A stretch of 32,634 nucleotides of DNA, taken from positions 1 through 32,634 of the forward strand of contig JAJQGF010000211.1 in NCBI GenBank assembly GCA_021200695.1, in the 5' to 3' direction. The notes below the pieces were generated by a model. That model had not been told where the DNA came from. It saw nothing but the letters and a program-made list of their open reading frames with translations, and searched no databases. Shown here in pieces: positions 1,534-28,489 of the stretch. This DNA comes from Lachnospiraceae bacterium. GTDB taxonomy: Bacteria; Bacillota; Clostridia; Lachnospirales; Lachnospiraceae. The number at the start of each line of letters is the position of its first letter. Position 1 is the stretch's first letter. A program made the translations under genes and the position numbers.

Positions 1534-1601
1534 TCATTTAAATTTAGAAGAAAGTAATGCATAATGGTATAAGAATTTTATTAAAATCGGAGGAAAAGTA
1601 T

Positions 1602-2786
1602 ATGGCAAAGAAGGTTGTATTAGCAGGTGCATGTCGTACGGCAATAGGAACTATGGGCGGCGCGCTCAGCACAACACCCGCAGCAGAGCTCGGAGCGATT
1701 GTAATCAGAGAAGCATTGAAGAGGGCAGGAGTTTCTCCCGAGGCTGTAGACCAGGTATATATGGGATGTGTAATTCAGGCAGGTCAGGGACAGAATGTTG
1801 CGCGTCAGGCTTCAATTAAGGCGGGACTTCCTATTGAGGTGCCGGCGGTAACAATGAATGTAGTATGCGGTTCGGGTCTTAATTGTGTCAATCAGGCTGC
1901 ACAGATGATTATGGCCGGAGATGCCGATATAGTTGTGGCGGGAGGCATGGAGAATATGTCTATGGCACCGTATGCAATTCCTCAGGCGCGCTACGGTTAC
2001 AGAATGAATAACGGTACGCTCGTTGATACAATGATTAAGGATGCACTTTGGGATGCGTTTAATGATTATCATATGATTAAAACCGCGGACAACATCTGTG
2101 AGGAGTGGGGACTTACCAGAGAGGAGCTTGACGAATTTGCGCTTAAGAGCCAGCATAAGGCTGAGGCAGCGCAGAATAACGGTGCGTTTAAGGCGGAGAT
2201 AGTTCCCGTTGAGGTTAAGAAAAAGAAGGAGACCATTGTTTTCGATACTGACGAAGGCCCAAGACACGGCTCTACAATAGAGGTGCTTGCAAAGCTTCGT
2301 CCTATTAATCAGGGCGGCTTCGTAACGGCAGGCAATGCATCGGGCATCAACGATGGTGCGGCTGCTGTTGTTGTAATGAGCGAGGAGAAGGCTAAGGAGT
2401 TGGGAGTTAAGCCAATGGCAACCTTTGTTGCAGGCGCGCTTGCAGGCGTCCGTCCGGAGGTAATGGGTATTGGTCCTGTAGCCTCAACTAAGAAGGTTAT
2501 GGCTAAAACCGGCATGAAGATAGAAGACTTTGATATTATAGAGGCAAACGAGGCGTTTGCCGCACAGTCGGTTGCCGTTGGCAGGGAGCTTGGAATTGAT
2601 GTAGATAAGCAGTTGAATCCCAATGGAGGCGCTATCGCGCTCGGACATCCGGTTGGAGCCTCTGGCTGCCGTATACTTGTAACCCTGCTTCATGAAATGC
2701 AGGCAAGGGGCGCAAAGACAGGCCTGGCAACACTCTGCATCGGCGGAGGAATGGGCTGCTCAACAATTGTTAAAATTGAGGATTGA
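1602..2786 (+). CDS. thl: Acetyl-CoA acetyltransferase (thiolase)
   Basis: [20 protein letters not shown], active-site [12 protein letters not shown]-terminal [20 protein letters not shown] and CIGGGMG. Start set at 1602, after an AGGAGG-like RBS, rather than the ORF-track start 1557. Confidence 0.95.
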
Positions 2787-2840
2787 GATTTGGCGGATAA
2801 TTGCCTGATGTAATTTTCCGGGATGGAGGCAGAAATTATA

Positions 2841-3626
2841 ATGGAATATATATTATATGAACAGAAGGGCGAATATGCGATTCTGACAATTAATCGTGAG
2901 AAGGCGCTGAATGCGCTTAACTCACAGGTGCTTGAGGAGATTAGCACAGCTCTGGACGAAATAAATTCAGACGAGGTGCGTGTGCTTATTGTTACCGGCG
3001 CAGGTGCAAAAGCCTTTGTTGCAGGTGCTGATATCGGAGAGATGAGCACTCTTACAAAGGCGGAGGGTGAAGCCTTTGGCAAGAAGGGAAATGATGTATT
3101 CAGAAGGCTTGAGACCCTTCCGATTCCTGTAATTGCCGCTGTAAACGGTTTTGCGCTGGGCGGAGGCTGCGAGCTTGCTATGAGCTGTGACATAAGGCTT
3201 TGCTCTGACAATGCCGTGTTCGGTCAGCCGGAGGCGGGGCTTGGCATTACCCCCGGTTTCGGAGGGACGCAGAGGCTGGCTCGTCTTGTGGGTGCAGGTA
3301 TGGCAAAGCAGCTAATCTACACGGCACGTAATATCAAGGCGGAGGAAGCGTTAAGGATTGGGCTTGTAAACGCAGTATATGCTCAGGAGGAACTGCTTCC
3401 CGCCGCAGAAAAGATGGCCTCTGTCATAGCAAAGAATGCTCCCATTGCAGTGCGCAACTGCAAGAAGGCTATAAATGACGGTCTTGAGGCTTCCATGGAT
3501 GAGGCAATCGTTATAGAGGAGAAGCTTTTCGGGGACTGCTTTGAGACTGAGGACCAGAAGTACGGTATGGCCTTTTTCCTTGATAAAAATAAGGAAAAGG
3601 TTAAGGAGCCGTTTAAAAACTGCTGA
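2841..3626 (+). CDS. crt: Enoyl-CoA hydratase / 3-hydroxybutyryl-CoA dehydratase (crotonase)
   Basis: Crotonase motifs AFVAGADIGEM and NGFALGGGCELAMSCDIR. Start set at 2841 because GGATGGAGG precedes it. Confidence 0.93.
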   Translation: MEYILYEQKGEYAILTINREKALNALNSQVLEEISTALDEINSDEVRVLIVTGAGAKAFVAGADIGEMSTLTKAEGEAFGKKGNDVFRRLETLPIPVIAAVNGFALGGGCELAMSCDIRLCSDNAVFGQPEAGLGITPGFGGTQRLARLVGAGMAKQLIYTARNIKAEEALRIGLVNAVYAQEELLPAAEKMASVIAKNAPIAVRNCKKAINDGLEASMDEAIVIEEKLFGDCFETEDQKYGMAFFLDKNKEKVKEPFKNC

Positions 3627-3680
3627 GATTAATAATATAGAATTTTCACACCGCCATGAGCGGTAGAAAGCGAGGACAAA

Positions 3681-4559
3681 ATGAAGGTTGGCGTTATAGG
3701 CGCAGGTACCATGGGACAGGGAATAGCAAAGGCATTTGCGCAGGTTGACGGCTACGAGGTAGCCCTCTGCGATATTAAGCAGGAATGGGCAGAAGGCGGC
3801 AGGGAAAAAATTGCAAAGGGATATGCCAGACTTGTAGAGAAGGGTAAGCTTGAACAGACGGCAGTTGACAATATTCTTGCGAAGATTACACCGGGCCTCA
3901 AGGAGGATTTATGTGCAGACTGTGATTTGATAGTTGAGGCGGCATTTGAAGATATGGAAGTAAAAAAGACCACCTTCGGAGAGCTCGACAGGCTTGTAAA
4001 GCCCGAGTGCATTTTTGCTTCCAATACCTCCAGCCTCTCAATAACTGAGATTGGGAACGGTCTGAACCGTCCGATGATAGGTATGCATTTCTTCAATCCT
4101 GCGGACCGCATGAAGCTGGTAGAGGTAATAGCCGGGGTAAATACCCCTGCAGAGACGGTTGAAGCAATAAAAAGGATTTGCGGGGAAATCGGAAAAACTC
4201 CGGTACAGGTCAATGAGGCGGCAGGTTTTGTTGTAAACCGTATTCTTATTCCTATGATTAATGAAGCTGCTTTTATTAAAATGGAAGGCGTTTCAGATAT
4301 TGCAGGTATAGATGCAGCAATGAAGCTGGGAGCAAATCATCCTATGGGTCCCCTGGAATTAGGTGACTTTATCGGACTTGATATATGCCTTGCCATTATG
4401 GATGTACTTTATAAGGAGACAGGCGACAGCAAATACCGCGCATGCCCTATGCTTAGAAAGATGGTGCGCGGCGGCAATCTCGGAGTTAAGAGCGGAAAGG
4501 GCTTTTATGTGTACAATGCGGATCGCACTAAGACGCCATCTGATGCACAATGCGAATAG
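3681..4559 (+). CDS. hbd: 3-hydroxybutyryl-CoA dehydrogenase
   Basis: N-terminal GVIGAGTMGQGIA Rossmann motif; MHFFNPADRMKLVEVI; GFVVNRILIPMINEA; operon context. Confidence 0.94.
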   Translation: MKVGVIGAGTMGQGIAKAFAQVDGYEVALCDIKQEWAEGGREKIAKGYARLVEKGKLEQTAVDNILAKITPGLKEDLCADCDLIVEAAFEDMEVKKTTFGELDRLVKPECIFASNTSSLSITEIGNGLNRPMIGMHFFNPADRMKLVEVIAGVNTPAETVEAIKRICGEIGKTPVQVNEAAGFVVNRILIPMINEAAFIKMEGVSDIAGIDAAMKLGANHPMGPLELGDFIGLDICLAIMDVLYKETGDSKYRACPMLRKMVRGGNLGVKSGKGFYVYNADRTKTPSDAQCE

Positions 4560-4655
4560 AAGAATGCCAAAAGGAGGCATTTCTCACAGTATTAGATAAA
4601 TATCACGAATGTAGCTGGTGATATGTATAATTATAAACATGGAGGAAATATAATC

Positions 4656-5822
4656 ATGGATTTTTCTTTAAGCAAGGAACATGAAATGGCGCGTTCCCTT
4701 TTCAGGGAATTCGCCGAAAACGAAGCAAAGCCTCTTGCGATAGAGGTTGATGAGAATGAAAAATTCCCCAGAGAGACCGTTGATAAAATGGGCAGATACG
4801 GTTTCCTCGGAATTCCCGTTCCTAGGCAGTATGGAGGACAGGGCTGCGATATTCTTACTTATGTTATGTGTGTTGAGGAGCTCTCAAAGGTATGCGCTAC
4901 CACAGGTGTAATTGTGTCGGCTCACACATCGCTTTGCTGCGACCCTATTCAGACCTATGGCACTGAGGAACAGAAGCAGAAATATCTTGTTCCTCTTGCA
5001 AAGGGAGAAAAGCTTGGGGCTTTCGGGCTCACCGAGCCCGGCGCCGGAACCGACGCTCAGGGACAGCAGACAAAGGCAGTCCTTGACGGTGACGAGTGGG
5101 TATTAAACGGCTCAAAATGCTTTATTACAAACGGAAAGGAGGCAGATATTTATGTAATATTTGCCGTGACCGGAAAAATTGAGAAACGTGGAAAGATGAT
5201 TAAGGAAATTTCAGCTTTTATCGTTGAAAAGGGAACTCCCGGATTTACCTTCGGTACGAAAGAGAATAAGATGGGTATCCGCGGTTCTGCCACATATGAG
5301 CTGATTTTCACGGACTGCCGTATTCCAAAGGAAAATATGCTTGGACAGCAGGGCAAGGGCTTCAACATTGCAATGCATACGCTCGACGGCGGACGTATAG
5401 GCATCGCGGCGCAGGCTCTCGGTATTGCAGAGGGTGCTCTTGAGAGGACAATAGAGTATACTAAAGAGAGAAAACAGTTTGGAAAGTCTATTTCAGGCTT
5501 CCAGAATACGCAGTTCCAGCTTGCGGATATGGCCACAAAGGTTGAGGCTGCAAAGCTTCTGGTATACAAGGCTGCAATGAAGAAGGCTGAGTATGCAAAA
5601 AATCCCAAAATTTCTTATTCCTTCGAAGCTGCGCAGGCTAAGCTCTATGCCGCCGAGGTTGCAATGGAGGTTACTACCAAGGCCGTACAATTACATGGCG
5701 GATATGGTTACATCAGAGAGTACGAGGTTGAGCGCATGATGAGAGATGCAAAGATTACCGAGATTTATGAGGGAACATCAGAGGTTCAGCGCATGGTAAT
5801 CTCAGCCGGCTTATTAAAGTAA
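4656..5822 (+). CDS. bcd: Butyryl-CoA dehydrogenase (acyl-CoA dehydrogenase)
   Basis: MDFSLSKEHEMARSLFREFAENE, FGLTEPGAGTDA, C-terminal ITEIYEGTSEVQRMVIS. Start at 4656 after a GGAGG RBS. Confidence 0.93.
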   Translation: MDFSLSKEHEMARSLFREFAENEAKPLAIEVDENEKFPRETVDKMGRYGFLGIPVPRQYGGQGCDILTYVMCVEELSKVCATTGVIVSAHTSLCCDPIQTYGTEEQKQKYLVPLAKGEKLGAFGLTEPGAGTDAQGQQTKAVLDGDEWVLNGSKCFITNGKEADIYVIFAVTGKIEKRGKMIKEISAFIVEKGTPGFTFGTKENKMGIRGSATYELIFTDCRIPKENMLGQQGKGFNIAMHTLDGGRIGIAAQALGIAEGALERTIEYTKERKQFGKSISGFQNTQFQLADMATKVEAAKLLVYKAAMKKAEYAKNPKISYSFEAAQAKLYAAEVAMEVTTKAVQLHGGYGYIREYEVERMMRDAKITEIYEGTSEVQRMVISAGLLK

Positions 5823-5840
5823 ATATGGAGGTAATTTGAC

Positions 5841-6626
5841 GTGAAAGTTATCGTTTGTGTAAAACAGGTTCCGGATACAAAGGGCGGAGTAAAATTTAAT
5901 GCTGACGGAACACTTGACAGGGCAGCAATGCTCGCCATAATGAATCCTGATGACAAGGCAGGACTTGAGGCTGCCCTCAGATTAAAGGATGAGTATGGAG
6001 CAGAGGTTACGGTGCTTACCATGGGTCTCCCTAAGGCAGCAGATGTGCTTCGCGAAGCAATCGCAATGGGTGCCGACAAGGGTATACTCGTAACCGACAG
6101 AGTATTGGGAGGCGCAGACACATGGGCGACCTCTACAACAATCGCAGGCGCGATTAGAAATCTTGAATATGATTTAATCATCACAGGACGCCAGGCTATT
6201 GACGGAGATACTGCACAGGTTGGTCCACAGATTGCCGAGCATCTCGGAATTCCTGTTATCTCCTATGCGCAGGATATAAAGGTTGAGGGAGATAAGGTTA
6301 TTGTACAACGCCAGTATGACGACAGATATCATGTGCTTGAGGCAAAGCTGCCATGTCTGATTACAGCGCTGTCAGAGCTTAATGAGCCCCGTTATATGAC
6401 GCCCGGGGGAATCTTTGATGCCTGTGCCGCGGAAATTACCACATGGGGCAGAGCTGACCTTAAGGATGTGGAGGATTCTAATCTTGGACTCGCGGGTTCT
6501 CCCACAAAGATTGCAAAGGCATCTGATAAGGTGCGCAAGGGAGCCGGGGAGAAGGTTTCTCCTGAGTCTCCTGATGAGGCGGTAAGCTATATTGTGGATA
6601 AGCTTACGGAAAAGCATGTTATCTAA
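5841..6626 (+). CDS. etfB: Electron transfer flavoprotein subunit beta (GTG start)
   Basis: MKVIVCVKQVPDTKGGVKFNADGTLDR, GADTWATS, TGRQAIDGDTAQVGPQIAE; GGAGG RBS upstream. Confidence 0.94.
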   Translation: MKVIVCVKQVPDTKGGVKFNADGTLDRAAMLAIMNPDDKAGLEAALRLKDEYGAEVTVLTMGLPKAADVLREAIAMGADKGILVTDRVLGGADTWATSTTIAGAIRNLEYDLIITGRQAIDGDTAQVGPQIAEHLGIPVISYAQDIKVEGDKVIVQRQYDDRYHVLEAKLPCLITALSELNEPRYMTPGGIFDACAAEITTWGRADLKDVEDSNLGLAGSPTKIAKASDKVRKGAGEKVSPESPDEAVSYIVDKLTEKHVI

Positions 6627-6683
6627 GGCTCATTAAAGTAAAAATTTAAGCTTGAGCATAAGAATATAAAGGAGAATGATAAA

Positions 6684-7733
6684 ATGAGTTTGGAAGAATA
6701 TAAAGGCGTTTATGTCTTCGCTCAGCAGGTTGATAACCAAATCAGCGGTATTTCATTTGAACTGCTTGGTAAGGCAAAGGAGCTTGCGGGCACTTTAAAT
6801 GAAGAGGTTACGGCAGTGCTTATCGGTTCAGGAATAAGGGCTCTTGCGGATGAGCTTGCCGAGTACGGTGCGGACAGAGTAATTGTTGTGGATGACCCCG
6901 AGCTTGAGGTTTACAGAACAGAGCCATATGCGCATGCACTCGCTTCTGTTATCAATAAGTATAAGCCGGAAATTATGCTGGTGGGCGCTACTGCAATCGG
7001 ACGTGACCTTGGACCTACCGTTTCCGCAAGAGTTGCAACCGGACTTACCGCAGACTGCACAAAGCTTGAGATTGGAGATTTTCCCCTTAATGCAATTCCC
7101 GGAAGGGAGGCGGAGCAGAAGCATAATCAGCTTCTTATGACCCGTCCGGCTTTCGGAGGAAACACCATTGCAACCATTGCATGCCCTGACAATCGCCCTC
7201 AGATGGCAACAGTCCGTCCCGGTGTAATGCAGAAGCTTGAACCCATAAAGGGTGCTAAGGCGGTGATTGAGGACTACAATCCCGGATTTACCCCGAACAA
7301 CAGATATGTGACAATAAAAGAGGTAGTTAAGGCAGTAGCTGATGCAGCTGATATTATGGATGCCAAAATCCTTGTTTCCGGTGGACGCGGAGTTGGCTCA
7401 GCCGAGAACTTTAAAATGCTTGAAGAGCTGGCGGATGTTCTTGGAGGACAGGTAAGCTGTTCGAGAGCGGTTGTGGATTCCGGCTGGAAGCCGAAGGACC
7501 TTCAGGTGGGACAGACCGGCAAGACGGTAAGGCCTCAGGTTTATTTTGCAATAGGTATCTCAGGAGCAATACAGCATGTTGCAGGTATGGAGGAGTCAGA
7601 CCTTATCATTGCCATAAATAAGGATGAGGACGCACCTATATTTGATGTTGCTGATTATGGCATTGTAGGTGATTTGAACAAAATAGTTCCGCAGCTTACC
7701 GAGAAGCTTAAGGCTGTCATTGCGTCTAAATAG
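6684..7733 (+). CDS. etfA: Electron transfer flavoprotein subunit alpha
   Basis: ISGAIQHVAGMEESDLIIAINKDEDAPIFDVADYGIVGDL is the EtfA FAD-binding C-terminus; immediately downstream of etfB. Confidence 0.95.
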   Translation: MSLEEYKGVYVFAQQVDNQISGISFELLGKAKELAGTLNEEVTAVLIGSGIRALADELAEYGADRVIVVDDPELEVYRTEPYAHALASVINKYKPEIMLVGATAIGRDLGPTVSARVATGLTADCTKLEIGDFPLNAIPGREAEQKHNQLLMTRPAFGGNTIATIACPDNRPQMATVRPGVMQKLEPIKGAKAVIEDYNPGFTPNNRYVTIKEVVKAVADAADIMDAKILVSGGRGVGSAENFKMLEELADVLGGQVSCSRAVVDSGWKPKDLQVGQTGKTVRPQVYFAIGISGAIQHVAGMEESDLIIAINKDEDAPIFDVADYGIVGDLNKIVPQLTEKLKAVIASK

Positions 7734-18474: not shown

Positions 18475-18663
18475 ATCTTCAGTCTCCTGGCTGTGTGTTT
18501 GTATATAATTATGTAAGTAAGGTGTAATTTGTGCAGACCTGTTAATGCTCCGCGTTTTTAACCGTGCGTCCTTCGGTTGACTAAACACAGGCCGGATGTT
18601 ACGATTATTATAAGAGCTTGCGGGCATTATTCAGACGTATATTGCTTGATGTGGGGTGTATGT

Positions 18664-20238
18664 ATGGAGGATTTAAAGGAAAAGCCTCTGCCTGTGGGAG
18701 GTATATTGAAAAACAGATACCGGATTATTTCAGTGCTTGGGATGGGCGGCTTTGGAATTACCTACCGTGCGGAGGACAGACTTTTAAACTGTTATGTGGC
18801 GGTTAAGGGCTCCTCTTTGGGATTTAAACGTGAGGCAGCTCTTCTGGAGGCGGTAAGGGATGTGCCGTACATTGCCCGGCTCAGGGATTATTTTGAGGAG
18901 GCCGGAACAGAGTATATAGTTCTTAATCTGATTGAGGGGAAGACTCTCTTGGAATATGCAAAGGAATGCGGAGGAACGCTTCCGGCGGCGGAGGCGCTCT
19001 CTCTGCTTAGAAACACCTTTGACACTTTATTGAAGCTGCACGATATTGGATATATACACAGGGATATAAGTCCGGGAAATCTCATGCTTTCCGAGGATAA
19101 CCGGGTTTATCTTATTGATTTTGGCGCTGCGGCTTCTTTTGGGGAAAATAACAAATCGGATGATAAACCCATATTCAGGCATAAGGGACTTGAGGCGCCT
19201 GAGCATTCGCAGCCTGACCTTCAGGGACCGTGGACTGATATTTTTTCATTATGCGCGACGATAGTATATCTGATTACGGGAGAGGGAATTGCAGAAGCAA
19301 GGGACAGGCAGCTTTTTGACAGGCTGCCCCGGCTTCTGACGCGGAGCGCTCTTTCCTCAAGGCAGCAGAATGCGCTTATTAAAGGATTGAACCCGGATAT
19401 AAGCCGACGTTTTGCAGATGCAGGGCAGATATATGAGGAGCTCTACGGCGAAGAGCTGACAGCGGGGGAGACTGCGGAGGAGTGGAGAGTCTTTTATCAT
19501 GCCAGAACCTATATTGGCTCGAGACAGCTGAATCAGGATAATTTTGCGGTGGATTCGCTTTTTTACTATAAGGGAGAGGACTGTGAACAGTCCGGAGTCT
19601 TAAGCTGCCGTCCGAAGGAGATACATGTGGCTGTCGTGTGCGATGGCGTAGGGGGCTCAAACCACGGAGAGCTTGCAGCAAAGGCTGCGGTGCAGGCAGT
19701 AATACATTTTGCGGAGGCACACCCCGAAGGAGATGCCCTGCCTGACAGACTGCTGGAGGAGCTGCTGGATCAGATAAATGAAAAAATATTGCAGCTGGGT
19801 GAAAAAATCGGTCGCACAGCGACCACCCTGTCGCTTCTTATGTGGAGGGGAGACCGCTGTTACGCGGTAAATATAGGAGACAGCCCGATTTATTTTCTGC
19901 GCGGGGGAAGACTTAAAAGAATCAGCACACCGCATACGAGGGCTGAGCTTAACATAATGCAGCAGAAGCCGCTTCAGCTGAGGGATTGTAATACATTGAT
20001 GAAGTATTTGGGCAAAAGCGGTGTGACTGGAAGCCAGATGGCGGATTTTTATTATGGGAGGCTTATGAAGGGCGACACCCTTCTGATTTGCTCGGACGGT
20101 GTTTCCAAAAAGCTTGAGGAGAGCCGCCTGAAAAGATATCTTGCCAAAAAGGAAGGCAAATCCATTCCGGCAATATTTAAAGCGATAGAAAAAAGTGAGC
20201 ATAACGATAACTGCACTGCGATTGTACTGAAATTTTAG
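18664..20238 (+). CDS. Serine/threonine protein kinase fused to PP2C-type protein phosphatase
   Basis: Kinase: LGMGGFGITYRAEDRLLNCYVAVKG, IHRDISPGNLML, LIDFGAA. PP2C: SRQLNQDNFAVD, VAVVCDGVGGSNHGELAAK, AVNIGDSPIYFLR, DTLLICSDGVSKKL, EHNDNCTAIVL. Start 18664 preferred over ORF-track 18577. Confidence 0.88.
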   Translation: MEDLKEKPLPVGGILKNRYRIISVLGMGGFGITYRAEDRLLNCYVAVKGSSLGFKREAALLEAVRDVPYIARLRDYFEEAGTEYIVLNLIEGKTLLEYAKECGGTLPAAEALSLLRNTFDTLLKLHDIGYIHRDISPGNLMLSEDNRVYLIDFGAAASFGENNKSDDKPIFRHKGLEAPEHSQPDLQGPWTDIFSLCATIVYLITGEGIAEARDRQLFDRLPRLLTRSALSSRQQNALIKGLNPDISRRFADAGQIYEELYGEELTAGETAEEWRVFYHARTYIGSRQLNQDNFAVDSLFYYKGEDCEQSGVLSCRPKEIHVAVVCDGVGGSNHGELAAKAAVQAVIHFAEAHPEGDALPDRLLEELLDQINEKILQLGEKIGRTATTLSLLMWRGDRCYAVNIGDSPIYFLRGGRLKRISTPHTRAELNIMQQKPLQLRDCNTLMKYLGKSGVTGSQMADFYYGRLMKGDTLLICSDGVSKKLEESRLKRYLAKKEGKSIPAIFKAIEKSEHNDNCTAIVLKF

Positions 20239-23527: not shown

Positions 23528-23556
23528 TTGATAAATACGAACATATGTGCTACCAT
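23528..23556 (+). promoter_or_regulatory. Candidate promoter of the radical SAM/helicase operon
   Basis: TTGATA (23528-23533), 17-nt spacer, TACCAT (23551-23556). Confidence 0.45.
23538..23551 (+). promoter_or_regulatory. LexA-box-like site 1
   Basis: CGAACATATGTGCT against the Bacillus-type SOS box CGAACRNRYGTTYC; two mismatches at the 3' half (G for T, T for C). Lies between the candidate -35 and -10. Confidence 0.5.
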
Positions 23557-23560
23557 AAAG

Positions 23561-23576
23561 ACAAACAAATGTTTGT
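23561..23576 (+). promoter_or_regulatory. LexA-box-like site 2
   Basis: ACAAAC-AAAT-GTTTGT: perfect 6-bp inverted repeat with 4-bp spacer, SOS-box geometry; overlaps the inferred transcription start. Confidence 0.45.
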
Positions 23577-23590
23577 ATTGAGAGGGCAGA

Positions 23591-24943
23591 ATGGAATTTT
23601 TGACGGCAGGGCAGGATATGCCATTAATGGACAAGCTAGCGATACTTACCGGCGCAGCTAAATATGATGTTGCATGCACCTCCAGCGGTGTGGACAGAAG
23701 AGGTAGCGGTTCCTCTGTCGGAAGCTGTGTGGCATCGGGAATATGCCACAGCTTCAGCAGTGATGGGCGATGTATTTCTCTGCTGAAGATATTGATGACG
23801 AATGAGTGTATATATGACTGTAAGTATTGTATAAACAGACGTTCAAATGATACTCTGAGGACAATATTTACACCTGATGAGATATGTACGCTTACCATGG
23901 AGTTTTACAGGCGTAACTATATTGAAGGCTTATTCTTAAGCTCAGGCATAGTTAACAGCCCGACATATACAATGGAGCTTATTTTCCGCACATTGTTTTT
24001 GCTTCGCAGAAAATATCGCTTTAACGGATATATACATGTAAAGGCTATTCCCGGCGCGGCGCCTGAGTTAATAAGACAGACGGGCTTTCTGGCCGACAGA
24101 ATGAGCTGCAATCTGGAGCTTCCCACTGCTGATGGGCTTAAGGCGCTTGCACCTAATAAGCACAGAAAAAGTATTTTGACGCCGATGCGTCAGATTCAGG
24201 AGGAGATACATTCCAACCGGAATGAGCTTGTGCTCTACCGCAATGCGCCGAAGTTTGTAGCAGGAGGGCAGTCGACCCAGATGATTGTGGGTGCGACGGG
24301 AGAGAGCGATTATCAGATAATGTCGGTGGCACAGGGGCTTTATGAGCGCTTCGAGCTAAAGAGGGTATTTTACTCGGCATTTGTGCGGGTAAACGATGAT
24401 AAGAATCTGCCGGTACTTCCCGGAGGGCCGCCGCTCATGAGAGAGCATAGACTGTATCAGGCCGACTGGCTGTTGAGATTTTATGGCTTTAAGGCTGAAG
24501 AGCTGTTGAGTGAGGACAGACCCTTTTTTAATGTTCTGCTGGACCCAAAGGAGGATTGGGCAGTGAGACATCTTGAGCAGTTTCCTGTAGAGATAAACAG
24601 CGCTTCTTATGATATGCTTTTGAGAGTGCCGGGTATAGGAGTGAACAGCGCAAGGCGTATTGTGGCAGCCAGACGCAGCGGCAGGCTTAATTTTGATAAT
24701 CTAAGGAAGATGGGCATCGTGCTGAAGCGCGCGCTGTATTTTATAACCTGCAGTGGAAAAATGATGTATAACACAAAGCTTGACGAGGATTATATAGTGA
24801 GGAGGCTCACGGAGAGCAAGGACCGCATACGGCTTGGCAGTGACGCTATGACATTCAGACAGATGTCGCTTTTTGATGACGGAGCTTTTCAAGCGGATGT
24901 TAAGCAGGAGGAGAAAATTCATACCGTGGTCGGAGAGGTATAG
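23591..24943 (+). CDS. Putative DNA modification/repair radical SAM protein (TIGR03916-like) with C-terminal helix-hairpin-helix
   Basis: CIYDCKYC (CxxxCxxC) cluster motif, downstream partner typical of this family, HhH INSASYDMLLRVPGIGVNSARRIVAARR. Confidence 0.88.
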   Translation: MEFLTAGQDMPLMDKLAILTGAAKYDVACTSSGVDRRGSGSSVGSCVASGICHSFSSDGRCISLLKILMTNECIYDCKYCINRRSNDTLRTIFTPDEICTLTMEFYRRNYIEGLFLSSGIVNSPTYTMELIFRTLFLLRRKYRFNGYIHVKAIPGAAPELIRQTGFLADRMSCNLELPTADGLKALAPNKHRKSILTPMRQIQEEIHSNRNELVLYRNAPKFVAGGQSTQMIVGATGESDYQIMSVAQGLYERFELKRVFYSAFVRVNDDKNLPVLPGGPPLMREHRLYQADWLLRFYGFKAEELLSEDRPFFNVLLDPKEDWAVRHLEQFPVEINSASYDMLLRVPGIGVNSARRIVAARRSGRLNFDNLRKMGIVLKRALYFITCSGKMMYNTKLDEDYIVRRLTESKDRIRLGSDAMTFRQMSLFDDGAFQADVKQEEKIHTVVGEV

Positions 24944-24947
24944 CTTT

Positions 24948-25727
24948 ATGTATGTATACAGGTGCGAGGATACGCAGGAGAGCATTTTTACTGCGATTTA
25001 TAATGTATATGAAGAACACAGGCAGAGGGAGGAGGTAAGGCTTGAGATTACAGATGAACCGCTTCTTTTTGCCGAGGATATTTTTGTTGAGACTGACTAT
25101 GCAAAGGCCGGCAGAGTGGCGGAGACTATAATCAGAAGGTTCGGAAGGCAGGACTGCCATAGCATATCGTATGCGCTTGCCGCGGATAATCCTGATAAGG
25201 CGCAGGCGGTTTACAGAGTGATAATGATGGGACTTAAGGAGAATGTGCGTCACGGACATCTTCTCGATAATCTTGCAGATGATAATGTGCGACTTGTATT
25301 TTCTCTGGCAGGGTATACCGGAAGGGAGTACGACCATTTAAGAGGCTTTATGCGCTTTGAGGAGTTGGAGAATGGCGCGCTCTATGCGAGATTTGCACCC
25401 AGGAGCAATTTGCTTCCGTTTTTAATGGGGCATTTTGCGGACAGACTTCCAGCGGAAAATTTTGTTATATATGATGAGAAGCGCAAATGCATGGGTGTGC
25501 ATAAGGCTGGCTGCATTCAGTGGTATCTTATGATGTGTGATGAAAATACCGGTGAGCCAATCGAGCATAACCGGCTTAAGCTTTCTGAAGGCGAAGAGGA
25601 ATACAGCGAATTGTTTAAATGGTTTTGTGAAAAAATAGCAGTGAGAGAGAGACGCAGTCTGTCCCTACAGAGGAAGATGCTGCCTCTCAGATTCAGGGGG
25701 TACATGACGGAGTTTGGCAATAATTAG
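24948..25727 (+). CDS. Probable DNA metabolism protein (TIGR03915/DUF4130-like), no UDG domain evident
   Basis: MYVYRCEDTQESIFTAIYNVYEE start, RARFAPRSNLLPFLMGHFADRLPAENFVIYDEKR-like region, next to the radical SAM partner. Start 24948 preferred over ORF-track 24873. Confidence 0.82.
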   Translation: MYVYRCEDTQESIFTAIYNVYEEHRQREEVRLEITDEPLLFAEDIFVETDYAKAGRVAETIIRRFGRQDCHSISYALAADNPDKAQAVYRVIMMGLKENVRHGHLLDNLADDNVRLVFSLAGYTGREYDHLRGFMRFEELENGALYARFAPRSNLLPFLMGHFADRLPAENFVIYDEKRKCMGVHKAGCIQWYLMMCDENTGEPIEHNRLKLSEGEEEYSELFKWFCEKIAVRERRSLSLQRKMLPLRFRGYMTEFGNN

Positions 25728-25775
25728 CCTGTATTATATTTTGGGAAAATATCGGGAGAAACGGAGGCTCATGGA

Positions 25776-28382
25776 ATGCCGGATAAAGAAACAGAGCCGG
25801 TTATAACTGATAATATCGATACGCATATTGCTTTGCCAAAGGGGGAAATACGTGTATCGGTGCGTAATCTTGTGGAGTTTATCCTGCGTCATGGAGATAT
25901 AGACAGCCGCCGCGGTGCGGCACCCGAAAATGCAATGCAGGAGGGAAGCCGTATACACCGCATGATACAGAAGCGGATGGGCTCTGACTATAATGCGGAG
26001 GTCTTTCTGAGATATACCTGTCCGACAGACAGATATGTTCTGACTGTGGAGGGAAGGGCAGACGGTATTATAGATAACAGTGATGGTATTGTGATTGATG
26101 AGATAAAAGGTACATACAGAGACCTTGTTAAGGTTAATGAGCCTGCACCGCTGCACGTGGCGCAGGCCAAGTGTTATGCATATATGTATGGGCTGCGCAG
26201 GGATTGTACAGAAATAAGGGTGAGAATTACGTACTGTAATATAGAGTCGGAGGAGATAAAATATTTTTACCTTGATTATACTTTTGATGAGCTTGCAGAG
26301 TGGTTTGACAGGCTTATAGCCGACTACAGAAGGTGGGCTGATTATACGTGGGATTGGAAGGAATTAAGGCAGCGGACAATATCGGAATTGGAATTTCCCT
26401 TTGAGTACAGGGAAGGCCAGAGAGAGCTTGTAAGCCATGTATACAGCACGATATATCATAAGAAAAAACTGTTTTTGGAGGCGCCGACAGGAGTAGGAAA
26501 AACGATTTCCACAATATTTCCGGCAATAAAAGCTATGGGAATGGGGATGGGAGATAAAATATTTTATCTTACCGCAAAAACAATAACCCGTGAGGTTGCT
26601 GAGGATACACTTGGAATACTCAGAAGCAGAGGACTTAAATTCAAGAGCGTTATTCTGACAGCCAGGGAAAAGCTTTGCTTTATGGAGGAGACGGAATGTA
26701 ATCCCGAGGGCTGTCCGTATGCAAAGGGTCATTATGACAGAGTAAACACGGCAATGTATGAGCTGCTGACAGGGGAGGAGTGTTTTACAAGAGAGAGAAT
26801 AGAGGAATATGCAATAAAATATAAGGTCTGTCCTTTTGAACTCTGTCTGGATATGAGCCTGTTTGCCGATGGAGTAATATGCGATTATAATTATTTGTTT
26901 GACCCACATGTATATCTTAAAAGATTTTTTGGAGATGGAAGCAGCGGCGATTATCTGTTTCTGATAGACGAGGCGCACAATCTTTTGGAGAGGGGAAGAA
27001 AGATGTACAGCGCTTCTCTTGTCAGGGAGGAGTTTATGGAATTAAAGCGCCAGCTCAAACAGACAGTTGTGTCGGAACTGTCCGAAGGCAGGAAAAAATC
27101 GCAGATTGAAGGACAAATGACATTTGATATGACAAATATGTCATTGACTGAGTCGGAAATTGTTAAAACAGGAAATGCGGGAGGCAAAAGTCTGCTTGTT
27201 AGAGAAGGCTATGGCGAGCTTATGATACAACAGCTTGAGGCATGCAGCAGAGAGCTGCTGGCTCTTAAGCGTGAGAATGAGGGCTGCGTTCTGGCGGAGA
27301 GTATAGATGGATTCACAAACAGACTGCTAAGACTTTATGCTACAATGGGCGATTATCTTGGCGGGCAGGAGGAGGCAAAGCTCCCTGTAAGGGACGCTGT
27401 TTTGGACTTATATTTTGATGTCGCTCATTTTCTTGAGACCTACGAGACAGTTGACGAGAATTATGTCAAATACACACAGCTTAGAGAAGATGGTACATTT
27501 ATGCTTAAGCTTTTCTGTGTCAATCCGGCAAAAAGGCTTAGGGAATGCATGCTGCGCGGCAGAAGCACTATTCTTTTTTCGGCTACATTTTTGCCGATAC
27601 AGTATTATAAGGAGTTATTGGGCGGTGAGCCGGAGGATTATGAGGTTTATGCAAAATCAGTATTTAATCCCGAAAAGAGAGCATTGTTTATAGCAAATGA
27701 CGTTACCAGCAAATATACAAGGCGCTCTGAGGATGAATATTACAGGATTGCTAGATATATAGATGAAATTGTAAGCATGAGACAGGGAAATTACATGGTA
27801 TTTTGTCCATCATATTCTTTTCTTCACAGGGTATATAACATTTATATGGACTGTTTTGCCGGAGGGGACAGGGAATGTATAATACAGCAGGATAGCATGA
27901 GCGAGGAAGAGAGAGAAGCCTTTTTAAACCGTTTCAGGGGCAATGAGGACTGTCATCCGGAAAACCTTATCAACATGGAGATAGAAGAGGAGGATTACAC
28001 TCTGATAGGCTTCTGCGTTATGGGAGGAATTTTCGCAGAAGGAATAGACCTTAAGAACGACAGCCTTATAGGTGCGATTATTGTCGGTACGGGGCTTCCA
28101 CAGGTATGTAATGAGAGAGAAATACTTAAAGCCTATTTTGACCAAAGGGGCAGCAGCGGGTTTGATTACGCATACAGATATCCTGGCATGATTAAGGTGC
28201 TTCAGGCTGCAGGAAGAGTTATAAGAACTGCTGATGATGTCGGAATTGTAGCGTTGCTTGATGAACGCTTCCTTCAGTATTATTACAGAAAAATGCTTCC
28301 GCGGGAGTGGAATTATTTTGAAACGGTAAGTATTGACACCATTGCGGAAAGAGTAGAGAAATTTTGGGACTCATGGTCATAA
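25776..28382 (+). CDS. PD-(D/E)XK nuclease domain fused to XPD/DinG-like Fe-S superfamily 2 helicase
   Basis: N-terminal EGRADGI..IDEIKGT..QAKCYAYMY (D-ExK-QxxxY); Walker A EAPTGVGKT; DEAH box LIDEAHNLLE; four Cys between (LCFMEETEC, GCP, VCP) as in XPD Fe-S domains; motif VI QAAGRVIR. Confidence 0.87.
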   Translation: MPDKETEPVITDNIDTHIALPKGEIRVSVRNLVEFILRHGDIDSRRGAAPENAMQEGSRIHRMIQKRMGSDYNAEVFLRYTCPTDRYVLTVEGRADGIIDNSDGIVIDEIKGTYRDLVKVNEPAPLHVAQAKCYAYMYGLRRDCTEIRVRITYCNIESEEIKYFYLDYTFDELAEWFDRLIADYRRWADYTWDWKELRQRTISELEFPFEYREGQRELVSHVYSTIYHKKKLFLEAPTGVGKTISTIFPAIKAMGMGMGDKIFYLTAKTITREVAEDTLGILRSRGLKFKSVILTAREKLCFMEETECNPEGCPYAKGHYDRVNTAMYELLTGEECFTRERIEEYAIKYKVCPFELCLDMSLFADGVICDYNYLFDPHVYLKRFFGDGSSGDYLFLIDEAHNLLERGRKMYSASLVREEFMELKRQLKQTVVSELSEGRKKSQIEGQMTFDMTNMSLTESEIVKTGNAGGKSLLVREGYGELMIQQLEACSRELLALKRENEGCVLAESIDGFTNRLLRLYATMGDYLGGQEEAKLPVRDAVLDLYFDVAHFLETYETVDENYVKYTQLREDGTFMLKLFCVNPAKRLRECMLRGRSTILFSATFLPIQYYKELLGGEPEDYEVYAKSVFNPEKRALFIANDVTSKYTRRSEDEYYRIARYIDEIVSMRQGNYMVFCPSYSFLHRVYNIYMDCFAGGDRECIIQQDSMSEEEREAFLNRFRGNEDCHPENLINMEIEEEDYTLIGFCVMGGIFAEGIDLKNDSLIGAIIVGTGLPQVCNEREILKAYFDQRGSSGFDYAYRYPGMIKVLQAAGRVIRTADDVGIVALLDERFLQYYYRKMLPREWNYFETVSIDTIAERVEKFWDSWS

Positions 28383-28489
28383 TATTTATGTAACCCAAAC
28401 ATTTGTTTTTAATATTTAAAAATGAAGGAAACGACATCAAATTTTTGCAAAAATGACATTCAAAAACATGTAAATGACGTCATTGTTGC

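Follow-up and report, generated by a model that had tools for sequence, protein, structure and literature searches.

The subject of this work is a three-gene locus in a window of 32,634 nucleotides (nt), the whole stretch of DNA that was analysed, from a Lachnospiraceae bacterium (contig JAJQGF010000211.1 of assembly GCA_021200695.1, which is 79.6% complete). The genes encode a radical SAM protein, its DUF4130 partner and a nuclease-helicase of the EndoDinG type. The first two form a predicted SOS operon, with two LexA-type boxes over its promoter. The EndoDinG gene is not predicted to be an SOS gene on its own, and appears to have been added to the pair within a single clade. SOS control of such radical SAM pairs had been predicted before; in one clade this known type of operon is extended by EndoDinG.

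The gene cluster

The genes are arranged as follows.
23591..24943, plus strand: gene 1, 450 amino acids (aa), TIGR03916 radical SAM protein (COG4277 type) with a C-terminal helix-hairpin-helix (HhH)
24948..25727, plus strand: gene 2, 259 aa from an ATG start, TIGR03915/DUF4130 partner
25776..28382, plus strand: gene 3, 868 aa, EndoDinG-type PD-(D/E)XK nuclease and XPD/DinG helicase

The open reading frame (ORF) list places all three genes on one strand and separates them by 4 and 48 nt, in full agreement with a first-pass annotation of the letters. For gene 2, the ORF tool gives a longer version that begins at an upstream TTG; the ATG start is used here.

In the NCBIfam profile search, gene 1 matches TIGR03916 over model positions 1–415 with 675.6 bits (cut-off 343.5), and in Pfam its HhH matches PF12836 with 28.5 bits, above the gathering score of 27. 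We take COG4277 to be the radical SAM/HhH family to which gene 1 belongs. Gene 2 matches TIGR03915 (NCBIfam, 186.4 bits, cut-off 112.25) and PF13566, DUF4130 (Pfam, 134.5 bits against 27), and no UDG (uracil-DNA glycosylase) domain was found in it by Pfam. The helicase part of gene 3 matches the Pfam families PF13307 (Helicase_C_2, 130.5 bits) and PF06733 (DEAD_2, 48.3 bits). NCBIfam models of XPD/DinG-type helicases also match gene 3, none of them passing its cut-off, and PDDEXK_1 alone gives 17.2 bits, under the cut-off of 22. Together with the invariant residues described below, these searches bear out the families proposed in the first-pass annotation, namely a radical SAM protein with HhH, its TIGR03915 partner and a nuclease-helicase.

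The named close homologues returned by the homologue search are mostly from Lachnospiraceae. The TIGR03915 gene adjoins the TIGR03916 gene in most of the sampled loci, which agrees with the usual adjacency claimed earlier. The complete three-gene order was found again in 30 sampled loci (window included), and such recurrence indicates that the arrangement is not due to chance.

The control region

The following elements are predicted upstream of gene 1.
23528..23556, plus strand: promoter, TTGATA - 17 nt - TACCAT, the -10 being of the extended type with a preceding TG, a consensus match only
23538..23551: LexA-type box 1, CGAACATATGTGCT, covering the promoter spacer and the -10
23562..23575: LexA-type box 2, CAAACAAATGTTTG, with perfect palindromic half-sites

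The TTGnnA/GAACATATGTGCTA promoter layout is also present in relatives (L035, L037, L051, L161 and others), and box 1 is the same or nearly so in the congeners and in L051, L145, L161 and L166. The imperfect half of box 1 (GTGCTA) overlaps the extended -10 and is conserved in the congeners and several other Lachnospiraceae, as would be expected where the operator and the -10 use common bases. The boxes at gene 1 are of the same type as CAAACATTCGTTCT and AGAACATATATTCT, which lie in this genome's lexA promoter. A recA gene was not found in this incomplete assembly, and lexA is therefore the sole comparison promoter.

Perfect RAAC-N4-GTTY boxes were sought from -200 to +30 of gene starts, with the expectation obtained by shuffling. 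They lie upstream of 114 of the 141 radical SAM homologues, against 1.7% expected, and at least two boxes are present in 40. The other genes of the cluster hardly ever have them (DUF4130 2/133, HPr-like gene 0/42, EndoDinG 2/63; the HPr-like gene is introduced below). One of the two box-bearing EndoDinG genes is that of L169, where it stands head-to-head with a radical SAM gene across a common, LexA-boxed intergenic region (L169:5409-9392). The stricter pattern CRAAC-N4-GTTYG occurs at only two places genome-wide, below its reversed control (6), and thus does not define the regulon. A one-mismatch match 3' of EndoDinG (28396-28409) is attributed to chance, there being no excess in the one-mismatch scan.

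The locus therefore has promoter boxes that are conserved in relatives and are of the lexA-promoter type, as a LexA regulon member would. From the contrast between the radical SAM and EndoDinG genes, we conclude that the radical SAM–DUF4130 pair is a predicted SOS operon, and that EndoDinG by itself is not part of one. The boxes were absent from the first-pass annotation; they strengthen its assignment of the locus to DNA repair, which holds.

Related operons have been described. In Clostridium acetobutylicum, CAC3343-CAC3344 was earlier predicted to be under LexA control, and like the window it pairs a radical SAM protein of TIGR03916 description with a neighbour of unknown function (PMC3828012); no EndoDinG is reported there, whereas the window adds a third gene. 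The COG1573 (UDG)-COG4277 operon of Bacteroidetes, Verrucomicrobia and Alphaproteobacteria is likewise an SOS-controlled two-gene operon (PMC8565304), but the partner in the window is a DUF4130 protein without a UDG domain, and a helicase-nuclease is present in addition. DUF4130, radical SAM and UDG have also been associated (PMC3765255).

Distribution of the third gene

In an order-level sample of 295 genomes, TIGR03916 is over its cut-off in 105, EndoDinG is present in 136 and both are present in 81 (Fisher odds ratio 8.3). In the rest-of-phylum sample both genes are found in 25 genomes (odds ratio 4.8), and both ratios ignore the kinship of the genomes. Of 399 phylum genomes, 94 have a TIGR03916 match above the cut-off. 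EndoDinG is nevertheless unlinked in most genomes that have both genes. Within the family of the window, the genes are adjacent in 11 of the 21 genomes that carry both; in G274, which would make a twelfth, the HPr-like and EndoDinG genes sit at two contig ends. Elsewhere in the order, comparison of coordinates gave no adjacency among the genomes for which positions of both genes were listed; nor was there any in the 25 genomes from the rest of the phylum, the pair in G406 being about 15 kb apart.

In the radical SAM tree, one clade of 39 rows, with a branch support of 82, contains all 30 cluster loci. The cluster label changes 9 times on this tree, against 24 in shuffles, which is consistent with one gain of the cluster followed by losses. 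Among cluster pairs at 60–70% radical SAM identity, a common upstream neighbour is seen in 12/214 (6%) and a common downstream neighbour in 44/214 (21%); flanks are thus seldom shared, and the three-gene core outlasts them. The helicase linkage that had been put forward as the new element of the locus is, by these comparisons, real but limited to one lineage: inside the clade the adjacency recurs, outside it the relatives lack it, and it is not a general property of TIGR03916 genes. In four loci the cluster adjoins a gene on the opposite strand that, from its sequence alone, was identified as endonuclease IV (nfo).

The HPr-like gene

Between DUF4130 and EndoDinG, relatives carry a gene of about 75 aa that weakly matches PTS-HPr (phosphotransferase system HPr). 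It is the usual gene before the helicase there, and did not figure in the first-pass annotation. Of the 30 cluster loci, 22 have it and 8 do not. It also directly precedes EndoDinG where EndoDinG is unlinked, and in most Lachnospiraceae (examples are L037:6127-6348, L166:10413-10631 and about 40 other loci). Since it precedes EndoDinG whether linked or alone, we conclude that the HPr-like gene and EndoDinG are a predicted module of their own, appended to the SOS pair. In the window and three congeners it is absent from the locus, the genome having only distant paralogues (37–38% identity), and it is missing from the gap in two or more distinct regions of the tree, where EndoDinG follows directly on DUF4130. 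At L152:10887-11102 and L158:10230-10448 it stands directly after radical SAM–DUF4130, with no EndoDinG over more than 6.5 kb downstream.

The aligned copies lack the His15 loop and keep the Ser46 region (KS); the reference was the B. subtilis HPr sequence. The Ser46 region is what the protein shares with Crh and HPr, from which it differs in lacking the His15 loop, in adjoining a helicase-nuclease and in being absent from the cluster of the window. A Crh-like partner of the helicase-nuclease is a possible role for it.

The three proteins

The motifs and domains considered here are the following.
23807..23830, plus strand: radical SAM cluster motif of gene 1, C73-x3-C77-x2-C80, from a 53-sequence alignment
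24584..24682, plus strand: HhH DNA-binding motif of gene 1, residues 332-364, PF12836 above gathering score
25839..26390, plus strand: PD-(D/E)XK nuclease domain, N-terminal in gene 3, limits approximate, aligned with PDB 9kqh from residue 2 onward
26676..26831, plus strand: XPD-type iron-sulphur (FeS) cysteines of gene 3, C301, C308, C313 and C352, invariant in 21 homologues

Gene 3 has every EndoDinG sequence signature that was tested for, and is a predicted endonuclease. The EndoDinG subgroup, a name published in 2025, is characterised by an N-terminal PD-(D/E)XK domain with conserved H, E, D, E and K and by a CCCC FeS domain (PMC11981726, section 3.7). In gene 3 the nuclease residues H61, E75, D96, E109, K111 and Q130 are invariant in the same 21 homologues; the first five of these, with the four FeS cysteines, give the residue pattern of the subgroup. 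Gene 3 thus resembles the Bdellovibrio bacteriovorus type of DinG in both domains and differs in standing in an SOS operon, which the EndoDinG section of PMC11981726 does not describe; the activity data mentioned there are unpublished. The structure of a close homologue has been solved (PDB 9kqh). In its chain A, VEGRAAGI stands in place of the VEGRADGI of the window, with Ala at the position of nuclease residue D96, and it is perhaps an engineered nuclease-dead form.

Six cysteines (C29, C52, C61, C73, C77, C80) are invariant across 53 homologues of gene 1; a seventh, C387, is about 90% conserved. C29, C52 and C61, together with C387, could ligate a second FeS cluster. The AlphaFold2 model (mean pLDDT, the predicted local distance difference test, 82.9) finds its best solved folds in HydE, viperin-like, MqnE, BioB, ThiH and LipA structures. 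The 50 best PDB folds for this model include no spore photoproduct lyase, and the NCBIfam matches of gene 1 include no model for that enzyme. A literature search found no biochemistry of a TIGR03916 radical SAM protein on DNA. To our knowledge, neither TIGR03916 nor DUF4130 has a known substrate, although both are widespread. A shorter paralogue of the radical SAM gene is convergent with EndoDinG in three genomes that belong to a different family (L115:5107-8486, L116:4822-11718, L117:4694-8958). Such paralogues score about 250–270 bits to P0001 and match TIGR03916 only from position ~55, and 4 of 11 have a perfect LexA-type box.

The DUF4130 protein is modelled with higher confidence (mean pLDDT 91.7). 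Its top fold matches in the PDB and viral libraries are mostly DHH-superfamily proteins, including RecJ, Cdc45, PAP phosphatase and NrnA, and are weak (best E ~9e-4, TM-score at most 0.41). Profile comparison with RecJ, NrnA-like and pyrophosphatase-like sets was negative and gave no support for a DHH protein, and no DHH/DHHA1 match is among the Pfam families listed for 62 DUF4130 members. The invariant residues E127, R166, D176, R235 and E255 form, by eye, no DHH motif. Kinship to the DHH superfamily is therefore a lead only.

Possible function of the locus

The reading that we favour, and whose chances we would put at about even, is that the locus is a LexA-repressed SOS operon of an anaerobe that processes lesions and has recruited EndoDinG. 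LexA on the two boxes would repress it, and as these cover the gene 1 promoter, damage should induce radical SAM–DUF4130. No terminator was found in the 48-nt gap before EndoDinG in the window, and read-through would induce EndoDinG as well. The pair would bind DNA through the HhH and use 5'-deoxyadenosyl-radical chemistry on a nucleotide that is damaged or modified; the FeS helicase of EndoDinG would open the duplex around the site and the PD-(D/E)XK domain would cut, giving an oxygen-independent excision-type pathway. Such a division of labour, the pair acting on the lesion and EndoDinG unwinding and incising, seems to us the most likely one. EndoDinG would then be a facultative module, found elsewhere behind the HPr-like gene without SOS control, and in a single clade brought under the promoter of the SOS pair.

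The main rival is that two functionally separate units are neighbours: the SOS pair, and a housekeeping or carbon-responsive (HPr-like)-EndoDinG unit that became its downstream neighbour a single time, in an ancestral Lachnospiraceae, and was kept by inertia. We consider this a real possibility, though somewhat short of probable. Several observations weigh against the favoured reading and mostly fit this one. Adjacency is confined to a single clade, and the co-occurrence test takes no account of phylogeny. In the congener G073 (L035) a strong intrinsic terminator (-24.6 kcal/mol) separates DUF4130 from EndoDinG, and in most cluster loci the gap is about 130–290 nt and holds the HPr-like gene, with room for a separate promoter. 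Elsewhere EndoDinG goes with the HPr-like gene and has no LexA box. Eighteen of the 30 cluster loci likewise keep a downstream GH13 gene that has no link to repair, so that retention within the clade proves little by itself. Against two separate units, however, stand a core order kept through turnover of the flanks, radical SAM and EndoDinG genes that co-occur even when unlinked, and the repeated absence of the HPr-like gene that leaves EndoDinG directly behind DUF4130. The short, terminator-free gap of the window is a further point against them; given the terminator in G073, co-transcription of EndoDinG is likely here and not universal.

Direct reversal of damage by a spore-photoproduct-lyase-like enzyme, with EndoDinG as a mere back-up, is suggested by the label 'SplB-like' in PMC3765255, by the radical SAM plus HhH architecture and by SOS control; SplB is itself a radical SAM DNA-repair enzyme and is SOS-regulated in several groups, according to the literature. 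Gene 1 differs from it in its nearest folds and its HhH tail, and has three additional invariant cysteines ahead of the cluster motif. Photolyase-like reversal was lowered as the main reading after the fold search, the core not being closest to spore photoproduct lyase, and we regard it as improbable. We think it more improbable still that the locus is an anti-phage or mobile-element defence operon combining a helicase-nuclease with a modification enzyme. CRISPR type IV variants do have DinG-like helicases with added nuclease domains (PMC11981726), but LexA control, the clade-restricted and vertical-looking pattern and the chromosomal housekeeping neighbours all speak against such a role, in an assessment that included no PADLOC search.

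The lesion-processing operon can also be drawn in a bolder form, which we consider rather unlikely: a four-part, SOS-induced anaerobic excision-repair machine under one LexA promoter in Lachnospiraceae, of which the window would have the three-gene form without the HPr-like protein. Its parts would be a radical SAM protein with a possible auxiliary FeS cluster, DUF4130 as a degenerate DHH/RecJ-like partner, a Crh-like HPr through which repair may be coupled to carbon status, and EndoDinG as the helicase-endonuclease.

A named helicase-nuclease that shares the promoter in one clade and co-occurs with the pair elsewhere would provide a genetic handle on TIGR03916/DUF4130, and the SOS response of gut anaerobes would gain an oxygen-independent repair route.

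Other genes in the window

At 18577-20238, a single ORF encodes a Ser/Thr protein kinase (residues 41-290) fused to a PP2C phosphatase (345-551). A same-strand run at 1557-7733 contains thiolase (1557) and acyl-CoA dehydrogenase (4623) genes, and from these two genes only it is a candidate butyrate-type pathway.

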